Source: Jannaschia seosinensis (GTDB lineage Bacteria; Pseudomonadota; Alphaproteobacteria; Rhodobacterales; Rhodobacteraceae). Taken from it: a DNA stretch of 64,000 nucleotides. Position numbers and translations under genes: made by a program. Location of the stretch: positions 1-64,000 of the forward strand of contig NZ_CYPR01000055.1 of assembly GCF_001408515.1 (NCBI RefSeq), written 5' to 3'. The notes beneath the pieces are model-generated. The model worked only from the letters and a program-made list of their open reading frames with translations, had not been told where the DNA came from and ran no database searches. Of the stretch, positions 7,270 through 59,215 are shown piece after piece. The number at the start of each line of letters is the position of its first letter. Position 1 is the stretch's first letter.

Positions 7270-9345
7270 TTAGTTCCCGGCGGCGATCGTCGTCCAGGTG
7301 ATGAGGATCACGATCCCGATGACCATCGCGAAGGCATAGGTGAAGATGTAGCCCGACTGCGCGCGGTTGAGCCATTTGGTGGCGAAGGGCACGAGCCCCA
7401 TGGCGAGACCGTTGATCGATCCGTCGATCACCGTCCCGTCGCCGCGCTTCCACAGGAAGGTGCCGAGGCGCTTGGCGGGACGAACGAAGATGGTGTCGTA
7501 GATCTCGTCGAAGTACCACTTGTGCAGCAGGAACCGATGCAGCGGTCCCAACTGGCCGACCCACTGGCCCGGCAGAGCGGGCTGCCGGATATAGGCGAGC
7601 CAAGCGGCGGCGAAGCCGATGAGCATGGCCACGAAGGGCGAGACCTTGACCCAGACCGGCACGTGATGCGCATCGTCGATGATGTTGTTGTCGGGCCCCA
7701 TGTAGATCGCGCCCGCGCCGGGCGGCGCGTAGGCCACGGGTTCCGACGTCTCGGCCTCGCCGAGTTCGGTGATGTCGCCTGATCCCTCGCCGTGGCCCGC
7801 CGCCTCGGCGACGGTCTCGGTTGCGGGGATGCCGAAGAATTCCTCGATTGCGTGGTCGTCGCCGAAATAGCTGTTGTACCAGACCATGCCCGCGAGGACG
7901 GAGCCGACCGCGAGGACGCCGAGCGGCACCGTCATGACGAGCGGGCTCTCATGCGCGTGATCGTGCGTGTGCCTGTCGCCGCGTGGCGTGCCGAAGAAGG
8001 TCAGGAACATCAGCCGCCAAGAGTAGAAACTCGTGAGCATGGCCGCGATGACCAGCAGCCAGAACGCCGCCGTGTTGCCCGCGAACGCCACCTCGATCAC
8101 GGCATCCTTGGACAGGAAGCCCGCGAAGCCGATATGGGTCAACGGAATGCCGACGCCGGTGATGGCGAGCGTGCCGATCATCATCGCCCAGAAGGTCAGC
8201 GGGATTTTCTTCCGCAGACCGCCATAGTTCCGCATGTCCTGCTCGTGGTGCATCGCATGGATGACCGAGCCGGCCCCGAGAAACAGCATCGCCTTGAAAA
8301 ACGCGTGCGTGAACAGGTGAAACATCGCGACCGAATAGGCGCCCAGACCCGCGGCCACGAACATGTAGCCAAGCTGTGAGCAGGTCGAATAGGCGATCAC
8401 GCGCTTGATATCCGTCTGCACCACGCCGACGGTTGCCGCGAAAAACGCCGTGAGCGCCCCGAGCACGACCACGAAGGTCATCGTCGCATCGGCAAATTCC
8501 ATGATCGGCGACATGCGGCAGACGAGGAACACGCCCGCCGTGACCATCGTCGCCGCGTGGATCAGGGCCGAAACCGGGGTCGGCCCCTCCATCGCGTCGG
8601 GAAGCCAGGTATGCAGGCCGAGTTGCGCCGATTTGCCCATGGCGCCGACGAACAGAAGGAAGGCGATCAGGTTGGCAGCGTTCCAGTCGGTCCACAGGAA
8701 CCGGATTTGCGTCTCGGCTATGGCGGGAGCGGCGGCGAAAACCTCGTCGAAGCCGATCGAGTCGGTCAAATAGAACAGGCCGAAGATGCCGAGCAGGAAG
8801 CCGAAGTCGCCCACGCGATTGACGATGAACGCCTTCATTGCGGCCGCGCCGGCCGACGGCTTGCGCCAGTAGAAGCCGATCAGGAGATAGGAGGCGACAC
8901 CAACCCCCTCCCATCCGAAGAAGAGCTGCAGCAGGTTGTCGGCCGTCACCAGCGCCAGCATCGCGAAGGTGAAGAAGGACAGGTACGCGAAGAAACGCGG
9001 CTTGAAGGTCTCTCCCTCGCGCCATTGCGGATCCTGATCCATGTAACCGAAGGAATAGAGGTGCACGAGCGCCGAGACGGTCGTGATCACCACCAGCATG
9101 ATCGCCGTCAGCCGGTCCAGGCGGATCGACCAGTCGGTGGCGAGCGATCCGCTCTCGATCCAGGACATGAGGAAGATGCGCTGTGTCACGCCATCATGGG
9201 ACAGGAAGACGATCCAGGACAGCAGTGCCACAAGAAACAAGATCGCAGTGGCCGTCACGATGGCGGCCTTCTCGCCGATCACGCGCCAGCCGAACCCGCA
9301 GATCAGCGCGCCGACGAGAGGGGCGAGGAGAATGATGGGTGTCAT
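7270..9345 (-). CDS. nuoL: NADH-quinone oxidoreductase subunit L
   Basis: The 691-residue ND5-type subunit forms the distal end of the complex I membrane arm and carries the long lateral helix. Motifs include [39 protein letters not shown] and [20 protein letters not shown] hydrophilic, acidic stretch around residues 490-545 ([20 protein letters not shown] and following) interrupts the C-terminal helices; loops of this kind vary between species. The start ATG at 9345 lies four bases after the nuoK stop. Confidence 0.96.
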
Positions 9346-9349
9346 GGGT

Positions 9350-9655
9350 TCAGCCCTTCATCCTGTTGACGTCTTCGACGTCGATGGTGCCGCTGTTGCG
9401 GAAGAAGCATACGAGGATGGCCAGCCCGATCGCGGCCTCGGCGGCGGCGACCGTCAGGACGAACAATGTGAAGACCTGCCCCGTCAGATCGCCGAGAAAT
9501 CCGGAGAAGGCGACGAAGTTGATGTTCACCGCCAGCAAAACAAGCTCGATCGACATCAGGATGATGATGATGTTCTTCCGGTTCAGGAAGATACCGAAGA
9601 TGCCGATCACGAAGAGCGCGGCGGCCACGGTAAGGTAGTGTTCGAGTCCGATCAT
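9350..9655 (-). CDS. nuoK: NADH-quinone oxidoreductase subunit K
   Basis: The 101-residue ND4L-type subunit has three transmembrane helices. The two membrane-embedded glutamates needed for proton transfer are visible at Glu37 in [11 protein letters not shown] and Glu73 in [12 protein letters not shown]. Length and order (after nuoJ, before nuoL) are canonical. It follows the nuoJ stop by 70 bases, one of the wider gaps in the J-N block, and that gap shows no other reading frame of note. Confidence 0.96.
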
Positions 9656-9725: not shown

Positions 9726-10340
9726 TTAGAGCCCCTGCCCCGGCTTCACGTCGTGCATCTCCATCGCCTTCTCCGGATCGCGCCACATCTGGTGAAGCAC
9801 GTTCTGCCGCTTGACGTCCTTGCGGTGGCGCAGGGTCAGGGCAATCGCGCCGATCATCGCGACGAGCAGGATCAGGCCGGCGAGCTGGAACATCAGGAAG
9901 TACTGGTCGTAAAGCACCAACCCGAGCGAGACGGTGTTGACCGTGGGCGGCACGGGCACGGTGGCGAGACCTTCTGCCATGAGAACGCCCTCGGCCGTTT
10001 CCCACACACCGTAGGCGATGGCGAGCTGCATCAGAAGGACGATCGCGATCAGACCGGCCAGCGGCACGTAGCGCGCCATCTCCGCCTTCAGCTCCGCGAA
10101 ATCCACGTCGAGCATCATCACCACGAACAGGAACAAAACCGCGACCGCACCGACATAGACGATGACGAGCAGCATCGCCACGAACTCCGCCCCGAGCAGG
10201 ACGAACAGGCCCGCCGTCGACAGGAATGTCAGGATAAGCCACAGCACGGAATGGACCGGATTGCGCGAGACCACGGTGAACAGGCCACCGGTCACGGTGA
10301 CGATCGCGAAGAGATAGAATGCGAAGTCGAGCACGGTCAT
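9726..10340 (-). CDS. nuoJ: NADH-quinone oxidoreductase subunit J
   Basis: The 204-residue ND6-type subunit has five predicted transmembrane helices, with the conserved region [20 protein letters not shown] in helix 3, where the pi-bulge is found in known structures. The start is ATG at 10340 ([14 protein letters not shown]). It overlaps the stop of the preceding carboxymuconolactone-decarboxylase-like gene by four bases (ATGA), whereas an upstream in-frame ATG would run through that gene out of its real frame. The C-terminal tail [20 protein letters not shown] is charged and presumably cytoplasmic. Confidence 0.95.
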
Positions 10341-10732
10341 GCGTCGTCCCCCAGAGCATCGTCGGCGAGTTGCATCGCCTTGTTCATCGCCGGCAGGCCC
10401 GCGAACATTCCCATCAGCCCGATCGCCTCGGCGATCTCCTGGCGCGTCGCGCCCTGCGCGGCGGCCTGACGAACGGTCATGCGAATCTGCGCCTCGGCCT
10501 GCGCACCGAGCATGGTCAGCGCGGCCAGCGTCAACAACATCTTGGTCTTGGCGTCCAGCCCCTCGGGGCTGACCCCCTTGCCGGCGAACTGCTCCATCAT
10601 GTCGGCGGGCATGGTCGGCCAGAGCTTTTCGAACCCCTGGGGCGTGAAGTTCTCCAGCGCCGGGTTCATCGTCTTGGCCATGTCCTGCATGTGGGTCATC
10701 CAGGCGGCGAAGGGATTGGCGGGATCGGTCAT
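10337..10732 (-). CDS. Carboxymuconolactone decarboxylase (AhpD-like) family protein
   Basis: The 131-residue protein is inserted between nuoI and nuoJ and joined to both by four-base ATGA overlaps. Its second half ([20 protein letters not shown] and [18 protein letters not shown]) matches the helical core of the carboxymuconolactone decarboxylase/AhpD superfamily. The paired Cys-x-x-Cys of peroxidatic AhpD enzymes is absent: no cysteine occurs anywhere in it. A redox role like AhpD is therefore unlikely. Its exact placement inside the complex I operon suggests an assembly or stability role, which is inference. Function is otherwise unknown. Confidence 0.8.
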
Positions 10733-11223
10733 CTGTAGGGCGCGTCCAGTTCGATATTACGCGCCAGAACGGCCTCCCAGCGGTCGCCGTTATCGAGAAG
10801 CTTCTCCTTGTCGAAGAGCAACTCCTCGCGGGTTTCGGTGGCGAATTCGAAATTCGGGCCCTCGACGATGGCATCGACCGGGCAGGCCTCCTGACAGAAG
10901 CCGCAATAGATGCATTTCGTCATGTCGATGTCGTAGCGCGTCGTCCGGCGGGATCCGTCCTCGCGCGGTTCGGCATCGATGGTGATGGCCTGAGCCGGGC
11001 AGATCGCCTCGCACAGTTTGCAGGCGATGCACCGCTCCTCGCCGTTGGGGTAGCGGCGCAGGGCATGTTCCCCGCGGAAACGGGGCGATTGCGGCCCCTT
11101 TTCGTGCGGATAGTTCAGCGTCGCCTTGGGCGCGAAGAAGTATTTCAGGCCCAGTTTCAGCCCTGCGAACATATCCGTCAGCAGGAAATACTTGACCGAG
11201 CGGGTCCAGTCGATCTGCGTCAT
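10729..11223 (-). CDS. nuoI: NADH-quinone oxidoreductase subunit I
   Basis: The 164-residue 8Fe ferredoxin-like subunit carries clusters N6a and N6b to the quinone site. Two 4Fe-4S motifs are plain: [16 protein letters not shown] and [16 protein letters not shown]. The start is ATG at 11223 ([13 protein letters not shown]), one base after nuoH; the farther upstream ATG would add residues from inside nuoH. The N-terminal amphipathic stretch and the [17 protein letters not shown] segment match the family. The stop overlaps the start of the carboxymuconolactone-decarboxylase-like gene. Confidence 0.96.
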
Positions 11224-53919: not shown

Positions 53920-54906
53920 ATGACCCAGACCTACGACGTGATCGGCATCGGCAACGCCATCGTCGACGTCATCTCGCACGCCCCCGACATGTTCCTCGGG
54001 CAGATGGGGATCGAGAAGGGCATCATGCAGCTCGTGGAGCGCGAACGCGCCGAACTGCTCTATTCCGCCATGTCCGACCGGATCGAGACGCCGGGCGGGT
54101 CGGTCGCGAACACGCTGGCGGGGATCGGCGCGCTCGGCCTGTCGACGGCGTTCATCGGCAAGGTCAACGACGACGCGCTCGGCCGCTTCTACGCCGAGAC
54201 GATGGCCGCCTCCGGCACGGCCTTCCCGAACCCGCCGCGCCCCGCCGACCTGCCGACCTCCCGCTCGATGATCTTCGTCTCTCCCGACGGCGAGCGGTCG
54301 ATGAACACGTATCTCGGCGCGGGTGCGGATCTGGGACATGCCGACGTGCCGGACGTGTTCGGCGGCGGCGGGATCCTGTTCCTCGAAGGCTATCTCTTCG
54401 ACAAGGACGAGGGAAAGACCGCCTTCGCGGAGGCCGCCGCCCGGATGAAGGCCGCCGGCGGGCGATCCGCCATCACGATCTCCGACCCCTTCTGTGCCGA
54501 ACGCCACCGCGACGATTTCCAGCGCCTGATCGCCGAGGACATGGACATCGCCATCGGCAATGCCGTCGAGTGGATGACGCTCTACAAGACGGACAATCTC
54601 GACCGCGCAATGGGCATGGCCGCAGAGGTCTGCGAAACCGTGGTCTGCACCCGCTCGGGCGACGATGTCTGGGTCCGGTCCGGCGAAACCCGTGTGGTTG
54701 CGCCGGTCACGCGCGCGCAGGTGGTCGATGCGACCGGCGCGGGCGATCAGTTCGCCGCCGGCTTCCTCTTCGGGCTGGCCCGCGGGCACGATCTGGAGGT
54801 TTCGGCGCGCATGGGCGTCGTCTGCGCCCGCGAGGTGATCGGCCATGTCGGCCCCCGCCCCGTCGTGGACCTGACCGCGTTGTTCAAGGCCGAAGGTCTT
54901 GCCTGA
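53920..54906 (+). CDS. PfkB-family carbohydrate/adenosine kinase
   Basis: The protein is 328 residues from ATG 53920 (MTQTYDVIGIGNAIVDVISH). It has the ribokinase fold with the N-terminal sugar-contact region RIETPGGSVANTLAGIGALG and the C-terminal PfkB signature VVDATGAGDQFAAGFLFGLA, with the catalytic Asp. Rhodobacterales homologues are usually called adenosine kinase. The neighbouring genes give no pathway clue, so the sugar or nucleoside substrate is not certain. It is 83 bases after nth on the same strand. Confidence 0.86.
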   Translation: MTQTYDVIGIGNAIVDVISHAPDMFLGQMGIEKGIMQLVERERAELLYSAMSDRIETPGGSVANTLAGIGALGLSTAFIGKVNDDALGRFYAETMAASGTAFPNPPRPADLPTSRSMIFVSPDGERSMNTYLGAGADLGHADVPDVFGGGGILFLEGYLFDKDEGKTAFAEAAARMKAAGGRSAITISDPFCAERHRDDFQRLIAEDMDIAIGNAVEWMTLYKTDNLDRAMGMAAEVCETVVCTRSGDDVWVRSGETRVVAPVTRAQVVDATGAGDQFAAGFLFGLARGHDLEVSARMGVVCAREVIGHVGPRPVVDLTALFKAEGLA

Positions 54907-54962
54907 CGCCCCCCGACGGCGTGGACCGGCCCCGGCACGCGAGATTCCGCAACCACCCTGAA

Positions 54963-54987
54963 CCTCCACGGCGGACACGCGTGGAGG
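54963..54987. terminator. Perfect hairpin between the converging kinase and slyX genes
   Basis: CCTCCACG (54963-54970) and CGTGGAGG (54980-54987) form an eight-pair stem with a nine-base loop in the short gap between two converging genes. The position fits a bidirectional terminator, but neither side has a T-rich tract. It may instead be a 3' stabilising structure. Confidence 0.4.
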
Positions 54988-54993
54988 GCCTCC

Positions 54994-55185
54994 TCACCAA
55001 TGCGGCGGGCGCTGATCGGCGAGCGGAACCGTGCCGCCGGAGGATTCCGCCTCCGCCGCCCGCTCCATCAGAAGGCGGACCCGGCGCTCCAAGACGGCGA
55101 TCTGGTCGGCCTGCCGCACGACCACGTCCGACAGGTCCTCGATCGTCCGGGTCAGGTGAGCGATGCGTTCTTCGAGATGTTCCAT
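54994..55185 (-). CDS. slyX: SlyX family protein
   Basis: The protein is 63 residues from ATG 55185 with a GGAG ribosome-binding site nearby. The sequence opens [20 protein letters not shown] and continues as one coiled coil with heptad leucines and valines ([20 protein letters not shown]). It ends with [10 protein letters not shown], the conserved C-terminal pattern of SlyX proteins. SlyX is a small coiled-coil protein of unclear function. It is divergent from hisS and converges on the kinase gene. Confidence 0.88.
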
Positions 55186-55296
55186 GAGGGTCTCCTGACT
55201 GGTTTTGCGCCCGGCGCGCGGACGCCCGGCGGGACACGTGGCTTGTGCGCCCGGGGCGCGGGCACTAAGGACGCGGGCGACGAAAAGGACCCGCGC

Positions 55297-56781
55297 ATGG
55301 CAAAGAAAGACAAGCCCCGCCGCCCCAAGGCGCAGACGCCGAAGGGCTTCCGCGACTATTTCGGCGCCGAAATGACCGCGCGCAAGGCCATGCTCGACGC
55401 GATCGCCGAGGTCTATGCGCTCTATGGATTCGAGCCGCTGGAAAGCTCCGCCGTCGAGACGGTCGAATCCCTCGGCAAGTTCCTCCCCGATGTCGACCGC
55501 CCGAACGAGGGGGTCTTCGCGTGGCAGGAGGGCGACGAGGACGGCGACTGGCTGGCGCTGCGCTACGACCTGACGGCACCGCTCGCCCGCGTCTACGCCC
55601 AGCACCGCAACGACCTGCCCACCCCCTACCGCCGCTACGCCATGGGCCCCGTGTGGCGCAACGAAAAGCCGGGGCCGGGGCGCTTCCGGCAGTTCTACCA
55701 ATGCGACGCGGATACGGTCGGAACCGCCAGCGTCGCGGCGGATGCCGAAATGTGCGCGATGCTATGCGATACGCTTGAGCGGGTGGGCATCGCGCGCGGC
55801 GAATATAAGGTTCGGGTGAATAACCGAAAGGTTCTGAATGGAGTCTTGGAAGCCGCTGGACTTTGGAATCCAAAAGAGCCTGAAAAAGACGCAGAACGCC
55901 GCGGGATAGTCATGCGAGCTATCGACAAGTTCGATCGCTTGGGTCGTGACGGTGTCCTTGCAATTCTCCGCGAAGGGCGGCTTGACGAAAGCGGCGACTA
56001 CACGCCCGGGGCCAATCTTTCTTTTGAGCAACGCGAGAGGATAATGGTCCTCTTCGGCGATACAAATCATGCGGACAACTTCGCTGCCCTCGATTTCTTT
56101 GCAGAGAAGTCTGAAACAGGAAAGCGAGGAGTTGAGGAGCTAAAGGAAATTCACGATTTGCTGCGTGAACAAGGCTACGGCCCCGACCGCATCATCATCG
56201 ACCCATCCGTCGTCCGTGGCCTTGGCTACTATACCGGCCCGGTCTTCGAGGCCGAACTGACCTTCGAGATCGCCGACGAGAAGGGACGCCCGCGCCAGTT
56301 CGGCTCCGTCGCCGGCGGTGGACGCTACGACGATCTGGTCACGCGCTTCACCGGACAGCAGGTGCCCGCCACCGGCGTGTCGATCGGCGTGGACCGTCTG
56401 CTTGCCGCGCTGGCCGCCAAGGGGCGGATCGACCGCACCCCGTACGGCCCCGTCATCGTCACCGTGATGGACCGCGACCGGATGGCCGATTACCAATCCA
56501 TCTGCGCCACGCTTCGCCAGGCAGGAATCCGGGCGGAGGTCTATTTGGGCAACCCCAAGAACTTCGGCAATCAACTCAAATACGCCGACAAGCGCGGCAG
56601 CCCCGCCGCGATCATCCAGGGCACCGACGAGGCGGCGCGCGGCGTGGTACAGGTCAAGGACCTGATCCTCGGCGCGAAGATCGCCCAGGAGGCCAGCCTG
56701 GAGGAATGGAAAGAGAACCCGTCGCAGACGGAAGTGCCGCGAGACGAACTCGTTCCCTTCCTTCAGAACCTTCTGAAATGA
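55297..56781 (+). CDS. hisS: Histidine--tRNA ligase
   Basis: The protein is 494 residues from ATG 55297 ([20 protein letters not shown]). Class II motif 2 is [20 protein letters not shown]. The histidine-binding loop is [20 protein letters not shown], and motif 3 is [15 protein letters not shown]. The C-terminal anticodon-binding domain starts near residue 385. Alphaproteobacterial HisRS can be of a divergent type paired with unusual tRNA-His. A block from about 55801 to 56165 (residues about 169-290) is much less GC-rich and uses different codons from both ends, yet stays in frame. The stop overlaps hisZ (ATGA). Confidence 0.95.
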
Positions 56782-57869
56782 TCGAAACCGCCGACCGACG
56801 CCGCGCCGCCGAACTGCTCGGGCGGTTCGAGGCGGCCGGCGCGCAGCCGGTCGAGACGGCGATCCTGCAACCGGCGGGCACGCTGCTCGACCTCTATGGC
56901 GAGGATATCCGCGCCCGCGCCTTCGTCACCACCGACCCGCTTGCGGGCGAGGCGATGCTGCGCCCGGACTTCACCGTCCCCGTCGTGCAGGCCCATATGG
57001 CGAACGGCGCCGCCCCCGCGCGCTACTGCTATGCCGGCGAGGTCTTCCGGCGGCAGGAAACCGACGAGGGCCGCCCGCGCGAATATCTTCAGGTCGGGTT
57101 CGAGATCTTCGACGGCGGCGATCCGGCGGCGGCGGATGCGGAGGTGTTCGATCTGCTGCGCGCGGCGTTGGCCGAATGGTCGCCCGTCGCGGCGACCGGC
57201 GATCTCGGCCTGCTCATCGCGGCTGTCGAGGGGCTGACCACGTCGGAGCGCCGCCGCACCGCGCTGCGCCGTCATATCTGGCGCCCCGTCCGGTTCCGGC
57301 GCCTGATGGAGCGCTTCGCGGGCCGTGCGGAGGTCCGTGCGGAGCGCGCCGCCCTGATCGCGCAACTCGACGATGCGGCGGCGGAGACCCTGATCGCCGG
57401 GGCCGGTCCGTTGGTCGGTCTGCGCGGCGAGGGCGAGATCGCGGCGCGCCTGACCGCCCTGCGGGAGGATCGCGAGGTGCCGCCCATCTCCGCGGCCGAG
57501 GCGGAGGTGATCGATACGCTCCTGTCTCTCGACACCATGTTGGCCGATGCGCTCGCCCCGATCCGCGACCTCGCTGCCGACCTGCCCGCTCTCGGTCCCG
57601 CGGCCGACCGGCTGGAGGCGCGAGCCGAGGCGCTGTCGCGGCGCGGGCATGATCCCGCCACCCTGCCCTTCGCACCCGCCCATGGACGCACCGCGATGGA
57701 ATATTACGACGGCTTCGTCTTTACGCTGTCCGCGCCCGGACGCCCGGACTTGCCTGCCCTGGCAACCGGCGGGCGCTACGATGCGCTGACGGCGGCGCTT
57801 GGCGGGGGCCGCGCCGTGCCGGCCGTGGGTGGCGTCATCCGGCCCGGACTGCTGGGAGAACCCGGATGA
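56778..57869 (+). CDS. hisZ: ATP phosphoribosyltransferase regulatory subunit
   Basis: The 363-residue HisRS paralogue is needed by short-form HisG. Class II core motifs survive ([58 protein letters not shown]). The aminoacylation-specific features and the anticodon-binding domain are gone. It binds HisG in an octameric complex that starts histidine synthesis. The start overlaps the hisS stop, and its stop overlaps the hisG start, so the three are translationally coupled. Confidence 0.94.
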
Positions 57870-58558
57870 TCCGCCTCGGCGTTCCCTCCAAGGGCCGGTT
57901 GATGGAGCGGACCTTCGACTGGTTCGGCGTCCGTGGCCTGACCCTGTCGCGCACGGGGTCGGACCGCGAATATGCGGGCCGGGTCGAAGGCGCCGATATC
58001 GCGCTCGTGCTGCTGTCGGCCGGAGAGATCCCGCGCGAATTGTCGGCGGGACGGATTCATCTCGGCGTCACCGGCAGCGATCTCGTGCGCGAAAAGCTGG
58101 TCCGCTGGGACATGCAGGTCGAGACCGTGGCACCGATGGGCTTTGGCCAAGCGGACCTGATCCTCGCCGTTCCCAAGGCGTGGATCGACGTGGACGACCT
58201 CGACGACCTCGACGCCGCCGCCGCGCAGTTTCGCGCCATCCACGGCCACCGTCTGCGGATCGCGACGAAATACCACCGCCTTGTGCGGGAATTCCTGCGC
58301 GCCAACGGGGTGGCCGATTACCGCCTCGTGGACAGTCAGGGCGCGACCGAGGGCACTGTGCTCAACGAGACGGCGGAGATGATCGCCGACATCACCTCCA
58401 CCGGCGAGACGCTGCGCGCCAACCACCTGAAGATCCTGTCGGACGGTCTGATCCATTCGAGCCAGGCAACCCTGTTCCGGTCCCTGCGCGCGGATTGGAC
58501 GGCGGAGGACCGGGCGGAGTTCGATCGCATCGCGCCCCACCTGACCGCGGCGCCCTGA
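57866..58558 (+). CDS. hisG: ATP phosphoribosyltransferase catalytic subunit (short form)
   Basis: The 230-residue enzyme has the short HisG architecture without the C-terminal regulatory ACT-like domain and so depends on HisZ. The opening [20 protein letters not shown] and the phosphate loop DSQGATEGTVLNETAEMIAD are diagnostic. It joins ATP and PRPP in the first step of histidine synthesis. The start overlaps hisZ by four bases. It converges on the DUF938 methyltransferase gene with a gap of three bases. Confidence 0.95.
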   Translation: MIRLGVPSKGRLMERTFDWFGVRGLTLSRTGSDREYAGRVEGADIALVLLSAGEIPRELSAGRIHLGVTGSDLVREKLVRWDMQVETVAPMGFGQADLILAVPKAWIDVDDLDDLDAAAAQFRAIHGHRLRIATKYHRLVREFLRANGVADYRLVDSQGATEGTVLNETAEMIADITSTGETLRANHLKILSDGLIHSSQATLFRSLRADWTAEDRAEFDRIAPHLTAAP

Positions 58559-58561
58559 TCG

Positions 58562-59215
58562 TCAGAGCCCGCTGATGCGCGGGACGCGGCCGAAGATCAT
58601 CAGGTTGTTGGCCGGCATCTCGACCCGTTCGACTGCAAGATTGAGCACCATCATGACCGTCTCCACGGCATCGGCATCCTTGTAGCCGATCGCCGGATCC
58701 TGAGCCCGCAGGCTCGCGTCGAAAGTGCGATCCGCCTCGCCCGCCGGGATGCCATCACGCAGGAACGGGCCGTAGATCGCGAGAATCCCCCCGGGCGCCA
58801 GCGCACGCGACGCCTCGTCGAGGAGGACCGAAAGCTCCGCATCCGAAATGAGGTGCAGCAGGTTCACGGCCAGAACCATGTCCGACGCCCCCGCTACCGC
58901 CCAGCCGCGGGTGCAGGCATTGATGTCGCCGGCGTCGGATACATTCGGCAAACCCCGGCAATGCAGGTCGATCGATACCCGCCGAACCGGGTCGGGATCG
59001 GTCGGATGGAACCGCAGGTCGGGCCGGTGAGCGGCCAGCGCCGCCACGTGCTGTCCGCTTCCCGACGCCAGTTCGAGGACATCGCCGGCGCGCGGCAATC
59101 GCGGCAGAAGCGCATCCAGGATCGGCTGCGTGTTGCGCGCCGCAGCCGGCGCGTGAAGACGGCCCTCCGCATCCGGCGGCGTGGCCATGTCCGGCGTAAC
59201 GATACGGCGGATCAT
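58562..59215 (-). CDS. DUF938 family SAM-dependent methyltransferase
   Basis: The protein is up to 217 residues from ATG 59215, which overlaps the stop of the oxidoreductase gene. An ATG nine codons later (MATPPDAEGRLHAPAAARNT) is an equally good start. The SAM-binding loop VLELASGSGQHVAALAA and later PDLRFHPTDPDP identify a class I methyltransferase fold of the DUF938 type. The substrate is unknown. It is in the same orientation and coupled to the upstream DAO-family gene. Confidence 0.82.
   Translation of the reverse strand: MIRRIVTPDMATPPDAEGRLHAPAAARNTQPILDALLPRLPRAGDVLELASGSGQHVAALAAHRPDLRFHPTDPDPVRRVSIDLHCRGLPNVSDAGDINACTRGWAVAGASDMVLAVNLLHLISDAELSVLLDEASRALAPGGILAIYGPFLRDGIPAGEADRTFDASLRAQDPAIGYKDADAVETVMMVLNLAVERVEMPANNLMIFGRVPRISGL

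Follow-up and report, generated by a model that had tools for sequence, protein, structure and literature searches.

The window analyzed here (64,000 nucleotides, positions 1 to 64,000 of contig NZ_CYPR01000055.1 of Jannaschia seosinensis) contains on its forward strand a gene for a class IIa histidyl-tRNA synthetase (HisRS), hisS (55297–56781), encoding a protein of 494 amino acids. Its assignment to HisRS is based on the presence of both the catalytic domain (Pfam tRNA-synt_His, PF13393, 1.1e-37) and the anticodon-binding domain (HGTP_anticodon, PF03129, 2e-11), along with matches to HisRS entries of the PDB, and a structure search likewise returned HisRS chains at the top (3net_A, Z 29.4, rmsd 9.4, 395 aligned). 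This is the single HisRS match in the 3.83-Mb genome. Directly 3′ of hisS, with no gap, lie two genes that we take to be hisZ-like (56778–57869, forward strand), presumably a paralogue of HisRS, and hisG-like.

Between two genus-like flanks on the forward strand (codons 1–168, 55297–55800, GC3 of about 0.87, and codons 293–494, 56173–56778), hisS carries a low-GC block covering codons 169–292 (55801–56172, forward strand). In 120-base windows along the gene, GC falls from 0.67–0.74 to 0.46–0.58 between 55740 and 56219 before rising again, and GC3 is 0.87, 0.51, and 0.84 for codons 1–167, 169–289, and 291–494, respectively. In a two-edge maximum-likelihood model, the block is delimited by codons 169 and 292 with a gain of 30.1 log units, while gains in 60 shuffles of the same gene averaged 4.7 and did not exceed 8.9; GC3 within these edges is 0.50 vs 0.86 elsewhere in the gene. 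The first-pass annotation had described a sharply bounded segment in an intact reading frame, with about half of the bases at 55801–56160 being G or C, and these measurements bear it out: the GC of that interval is 0.511, compared to a window mean of 0.668 (SD 0.035, 360-base windows), and the frame is open throughout. Over 360 bp, GC is nowhere in the window lower than in this block, the next lowest non-overlapping stretch being at 0.572.

In alignments, the block corresponds to the insertion domain of HisRS, located between what we take to be the motif-2 half and the ‘RGLGYYTG’ part of the enzyme, and it includes a hypervariable loop (codons 246–288, 56032–56160, forward strand) which is longer and of different sequence in many relatives. 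The AF2 model predicts the block to be mostly helical, with 10-residue pLDDT values of 84–93 except at residues 251–270 (65 and 80). For the long form of a Limimaricola gene (L028), part of the extra residues is modeled as added helices, with pLDDT values of 84–90 up to residue 280 that drop to 68 and 53 at residues 281–300 (pTM of the two models: 0.66 and 0.63). Many flank residues are invariant across 40 aligned HisRS proteins, variable alleles included, and these presumably include the catalytic motifs. Since the rest of the protein, with its conserved motifs, stays native, tRNA charging would be expected to persist in variable HisRS.

The distribution of such blocks was evaluated in a set of hisS genes combining 80 loci from a scan of named genomes, 20 genomes of the genus, 30 loci similar to the window’s middle, 100 loci from 144 matching genomes in a one-per-genus sample of the family (retrieved using just the N-terminal part of the protein and picked roughly from the top of the list), and one viral contig, with one genome per species throughout. 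After removal of three incomplete loci (L012, L149, L186) and merging of identical genes, 207 distinct hisS remained. Blocks were called at a change-point gain > 10 with a lower GC3 in the middle, a model that misses replacements of host-like composition. On this basis, a low-GC3 block occupies the insertion domain in 48 of the 207 genes, one of them from a phage, and it often exceeds the usual length. The samples share some taxa, and the named-genome one may be biased by its closeness to the window. By sample, the frequencies are 16/79 in the named-genome sample, 21/89 among the distinct genes newly contributed by the genus-level sample (22/98 if all complete loci are counted, duplicates included), and 0/23 in the sample picked by similarity to the window’s middle. 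Middles without a block measure 117–124 aa in 151 of 159 genes and are longer in the other 8, and those with a block measure 119–174 aa; the window’s own allele shows no length gain.

Within the genus, a low-GC block is present in 13 of the 20 genomes, and the 13 low-GC middles differ from one another; in the other seven, the middle is high in GC, being short in six and long in one (L095). When J. formosa (L004) is added, the block is found in 14 of 21 distinct genus hisS, with at least five state changes on the flank tree. The pattern that the first-pass annotation had considered as evidence against transfer, the same block with a congruent phylogeny in all close relatives, is thus not what is seen. 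All 14 relatives from other alphaproteobacterial families have short middles, so that the short middle is probably the ancestral form; one of them (L287) includes a low-GC3 stretch (gain 17.8). This gene is the C24 copy of two HisRS-like genes in genome G501 (C24 and C51), and its GC3 is low at about codons 275–331. Across the 207 genes, two core types can be recognized at residues 200–246, ‘RAIDK’ (151 genes) and ‘RTIDKF’ (48 genes, often with GA.IDGVGL), with eight genes of other types, and both core types are scattered over genera and sister species. In one further locus (L200), the hisS frame extends to 651 aa, and GC3 is low in the tail past reference residue 494.

Comparisons of closely related genes indicate that the middle is exchanged between otherwise similar hisS. 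Nucleotide identity between L091 and L097 is 90.7% in the flanks, 59.9% at codons 170–240, and 42.5% at codons 241–290, and the corresponding values for L004 and L094 are 89.0%, 70.1%, and 40.9%. Limimaricola L028 is 91–92% identical in the flanks and 54–57% in the loop to four other loci (L016, L019, L020, and L021) and is 46 codons longer, while the window’s hisS has flanks 84% identical to those of L003, with bins spanning codons 181–285 being 33–51% identical. The same replacement is seen in another order in Shinella zoogloeoides and Shinella sp. PSBB067 (L312:8001-9641 and L313:4001-5470): flank identity in hisS is 96%, while the middles (457 nt vs 319 nt) yield no blastn match at E 1e-3, and GC3 per 20 codons is 0.2–0.5 in the 457-nt middle vs 0.75–1.0 outside of it. 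The Shinella hisS middle is thus a recent replacement.

More broadly, loop identity does not follow flank identity when variable alleles (n = 56, defined by a block or a middle > 127 aa) are compared, unlike in canonical ones. For variable pairs, loop identities were 21.2, 22.5, 22.2, and 21.8% at flank identities of 75–80, 80–85, 85–90, and 90–95% (638, 663, 127, and 18 pairs, respectively), vs 55.2, 55.4, 61.2, and 74.2% for canonical pairs in the same classes. The separate flank and middle trees which the first-pass annotation had suggested as a check are also in conflict: flank data reject a grouping of L003, L088, and L097 (AU test, p 0.00076), and middle data reject both a grouping of L091 with L097 (p 0.0038) and monophyly of the genus (p 0.026), although these p values are optimistic because the groups were picked after the trees had been seen. 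Grouping L004 with L094 was not rejected (p 0.148), and the middle tree gives the window’s own middle no firm place due to its long branch. Sedimentitalea L025 and a locus of the genus (L098) share a loop 75% identical over 65 aa, with flanks 78% identical at the amino acid level; since the loop DNA is no closer than the flank DNA, a recent transfer between the two is not supported. Taken together, these data show that replacement has been recurrent at one site in hisS.

Searches for a source of the replaced DNA returned distant sequences. Across 394 genomes of the family, the best-scoring among the matches listed to the window’s segment was 58% identical over 122 aa, partial matches reached up to 65% aa identity among the matches listed, and none represented a close donor; a DNA-level search of plasmids and phages with the window’s block gave zero matches. 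For the middle core of the window’s hisS, the nearest sequences are canonical alleles from other genera, the best being L033 (67% nucleotide identity). For the Shinella block, no donor was detected among plasmids and phages, and besides itself this search recovered only an edge of 38–53 bases in Sinorhizobium, Methylobacterium, Pseudorhodobacter, and another Shinella. In the phage collection, 18 matches to the window’s HisRS were obtained, all < 60% identical, and four scans of viral contigs revealed just one phage contig with this HisRS type. On this contig, IMGVR_UViG_3300025759_000462 (L314), hisS (7956–9524) and tyrS (9748–10998) lie side by side, and the other genes include DnaB, ThyX, PhoH (66% identical to that of Roseobacter phage CRP-603), a UvsX-like protein, an endolysin, and an exonuclease. 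The contig has a GC of about 0.30–0.49 vs about 0.5–0.66 over most of its host-like hisS and tyrS, and GC3 is low in the middle of the phage hisS (gain 13.1). Uptake of synthetase genes by a phage is thereby shown. With hisS flanks just 80% identical to those of the nearest bacterial genes in the set, this phage is not a direct donor.

Variation of this kind is limited to certain genes. No low-GC3 block was found in the 73 hisZ scored (8 of 81 were skipped), including the one in the window, while 15 hisS from the same loci had one. Among the 20 genus genomes, serS displayed no block (0/20, maximum gain 7.8), thrS a single weak one (gain 10.1, the rest ≤ 8.4), and tyrS also a single weak one (12.5, near the N-terminus, the rest ≤ 7.5), so that at gain > 10 the controls amount to 0/73, 0/20, 1/20, and 1/20. 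By contrast, 7 of 20 aspS (L349–L355; the survey covered the genus only) had gains of 18.8–49.5 and carried 54–87 aa of extra low-GC sequence, mutually different and at one fixed site, vs 586–590 aa and gains ≤ 7.8 in the other 13. This site is probably located in the GAD domain: in one protein, the half before the site matches GAD with an E-value of 8.5e-5, just under the Pfam cut-off, and a second insert-bearing protein yielded no GAD match. For the beta subunit of glycyl-tRNA synthetase (glyS beta), 15 of 20 genus genes (L436–L455) had gains ≥ 17 around one site before an ‘F.HDRLK’ motif, two others reached 9.3–9.6, and three were without block. In 29 loci from the wider family (L456–L484), five clear blocks occurred at the same site (L477, L472, L481, L461, L465), not counting L483, in which the block is a masked stretch (100 N); a block in L464 is at another site. 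AspRS and GlyRS beta of the genus thus vary in the same manner as HisRS, each at a single fixed site. No block is present in the window’s own aspS (gain 3.6) or glyS (gain 4.5).

A scan of 1.6 Mb from one genus mate (G002; 1,407 called genes, 1,324 scored) placed hisS, aspS, and glyS at the top among genes passing a flank filter; of these, hisS and aspS were on pieces included on purpose, and glyS was an unplanned match in contig C12. Only three of the 1,324 genes exceeded a gain of 20: hisS (42.2), aspS (28.0), and an ORF with a chromate-transporter domain (26.8), whose block lies upstream of the domain and fails the flank filter. This ORF is the sole gene of C12 (1.16 Mb) that scored above glyS (19.8), the top flank-filtered gene of that contig. 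Below glyS were ORFs of 601 aa (17.0) and 189 aa (16.6), both without Pfam match, an ABC ATPase ORF (16.4) and a TetR ORF (15.0), both with the block upstream of the domain, and an ORF of 1128 aa (15.1). Genes of the same genome that we named cysS, valS, alaS, and ileS by their motifs showed no strong block (gains 3.0–8.4, highest for valS). With SerRS, ThrRS, and TyrRS near clean and these four lacking a strong block, tRNA synthetases in general are not affected. Separately, one class I synthetase, probably ValRS based on frame length, is length-variable over 10 genus genomes, its match span being 1986–2328 nt and split in four (G019, G006, G008, and G009 vs six others), while that of another one is 1950–2067 nt.

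Several explanations may be considered for these patterns. Exposed loops could simply tolerate any sequence, with AT-biased mutation and random insertions creating the blocks and no antagonist involved, which would be consistent with the location of the variable sites outside of catalytic motifs and with a block GC3 that partly tracks the host (r 0.59). We consider this rather unlikely, as canonical alleles are constrained at the very same loop (55–74% identity), the window’s low GC3 extends into the conserved core at 169–245, sister pairs with 89–96% identical flanks have very different middles, and the best flank-filtered interior blocks of the G002 scan are hisS, aspS, and glyS (the first two included on purpose). 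Escape from codon selection alone, as raised in the first-pass annotation, leaves both the edges inside conserved sequence and the tree conflict unexplained. The annotation’s main proposal was a past recombination with a lower-GC donor. Replacement of the insertion domain is upheld by the sharp edges, the tree conflict, and the mosaic sister genes; a single transfer from a lower-GC relative with nothing further, for which the edges, the composition, and the proximity of the window’s middle core to canonical alleles of other genera could be cited, is improbable and largely refuted, since blocks recur at the same site (48/207 hisS; 22/98 family genomes, in different genera) and similar ones exist in aspS and glyS of genus mates.

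The in-frame character of the inserts and their fixed sites in three genes would also fit selfish DNA elements inserting at permissive gene sites, in the manner of Rickettsia palindromic elements, which are likewise found in frame at surface sites of conserved genes. Those elements share a common sequence, however, while inserts of hisS, aspS, and glyS (n = 40, 7, and 18) gave 0 cross-gene pairs at E < 0.01 and 43 within-gene pairs, which argues against one mobile element; the homologous hisS core is replaced too, and the window’s allele has no length gain, making this explanation highly improbable. We find equally little to recommend a co-evolution with tRNA, in which the insertion domain would follow changes in tRNA identity. 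The HisRS insertion domain contacts the tRNA acceptor stem in HisRS–tRNA structures, and one such structure (4rdx) is among the matches listed for the window’s HisRS, but tRNA identity would be unlikely to differ between sister species with 90–96% identical synthetase flanks, and HisRS, AspRS, and GlyRS beta vary in different sets of genomes. Finally, a promoter or structured RNA might hold the block AT-rich, given the hisZ- and hisG-like genes directly downstream. This can be given almost no credence: an Rfam search of 54800–58600 gave zero matches at E up to 1, the middle is short and high in GC in 6 of 20 genus mates, and carrier loops are just ~22% identical.

Overall, we lean towards the window’s block being one allele of a hypervariable HisRS insertion segment, repeatedly replaced in related alphaproteobacteria and likely under pressure from an antagonist. 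Homologous recombination over the conserved parts of hisS would bring in segments from a diverse pool, for which synthetase-carrying phages may be one carrier, and selection for a changed surface would keep alleles diverse. A changing surface might in turn allow escape from proteins docking on accessory domains, such as phage effectors or translation-blocking toxins. Patches in three tRNA-charging enzymes suggest an arms race between synthetases and some antagonist, and antagonists of synthetases are probably what drives replacement of the exposed accessory domain, although we know of no antagonist that hits HisRS, AspRS, and GlyRS together. One candidate connection is that HisRS, AspRS, and the phage TyrRS charge queuosine tRNAs, which are targets of colicin E5-type nucleases; this was dropped as a main explanation, since it leaves GlyRS beta unaccounted for and hardly any tyrS of the genus has a block. 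Extending the antagonist-driven reading, we would tentatively propose, as a possibility that we do not yet lean towards, that HisRS, AspRS, GlyRS beta, and possibly ValRS of Rhodobacteraceae and relatives carry hypervariable surface cassettes, exchanged horizontally, as a protection against synthetase-targeting agents, either phage-borne or bacterial, with phages encoding HisRS and TyrRS joining the conflict and moving cassettes, resulting in an immunity-like polymorphism within the translation machinery.

Parallels exist for parts of this pattern. As in mosaic penA and pbp2x of Neisseria and Streptococcus, hisS is an essential gene that probably acquired foreign segments by homologous recombination, with sharp edges and tree conflict. 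In penA and pbp2x, however, the exchange affects the catalytic domain, to which the drug binds, and a known antibiotic selects for it, whereas in hisS it affects a lower-GC, length-variable accessory domain, and several synthetases show it. Target-recognition-domain swapping in type I restriction hsdS similarly combines a conserved frame with an exchanged segment whose similarity ignores species relatedness, but hsdS is a defence gene, while hisS, aspS, and glyS encode essential enzymes. Across the titles and abstract openings covered by a literature search, no description of such swapped synthetase segments was found. Antagonists of synthetases are nonetheless plausible in view of known toxins: HipA acts on GltX and HipT on TrpS (PMC8262856). 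These kinases resemble the proposed antagonists in being toxin–antitoxin proteins that attack tRNA synthetases, but the targets named for them there are GltX, TrpS, and (disputed) LysS rather than HisRS, AspRS, and GlyRS, and the excerpted text of that account describes no hypervariable target segment (PMC8262856).

In practical terms, hisS, aspS, and glyS are ill-suited as phylogenetic markers for these bacteria. More fundamentally, tRNA synthetases are textbook examples of conserved proteins, and a hypervariable, replaced segment at a fixed site in three of them, with controls nearly clean, suggests that the translation machinery is under a strong pressure which has gone unrecognised. Toxins or phage proteins of a new, synthetase-targeting family are perhaps behind this pressure, and the variable domain may serve as bait for finding such synthetase-targeting agents.
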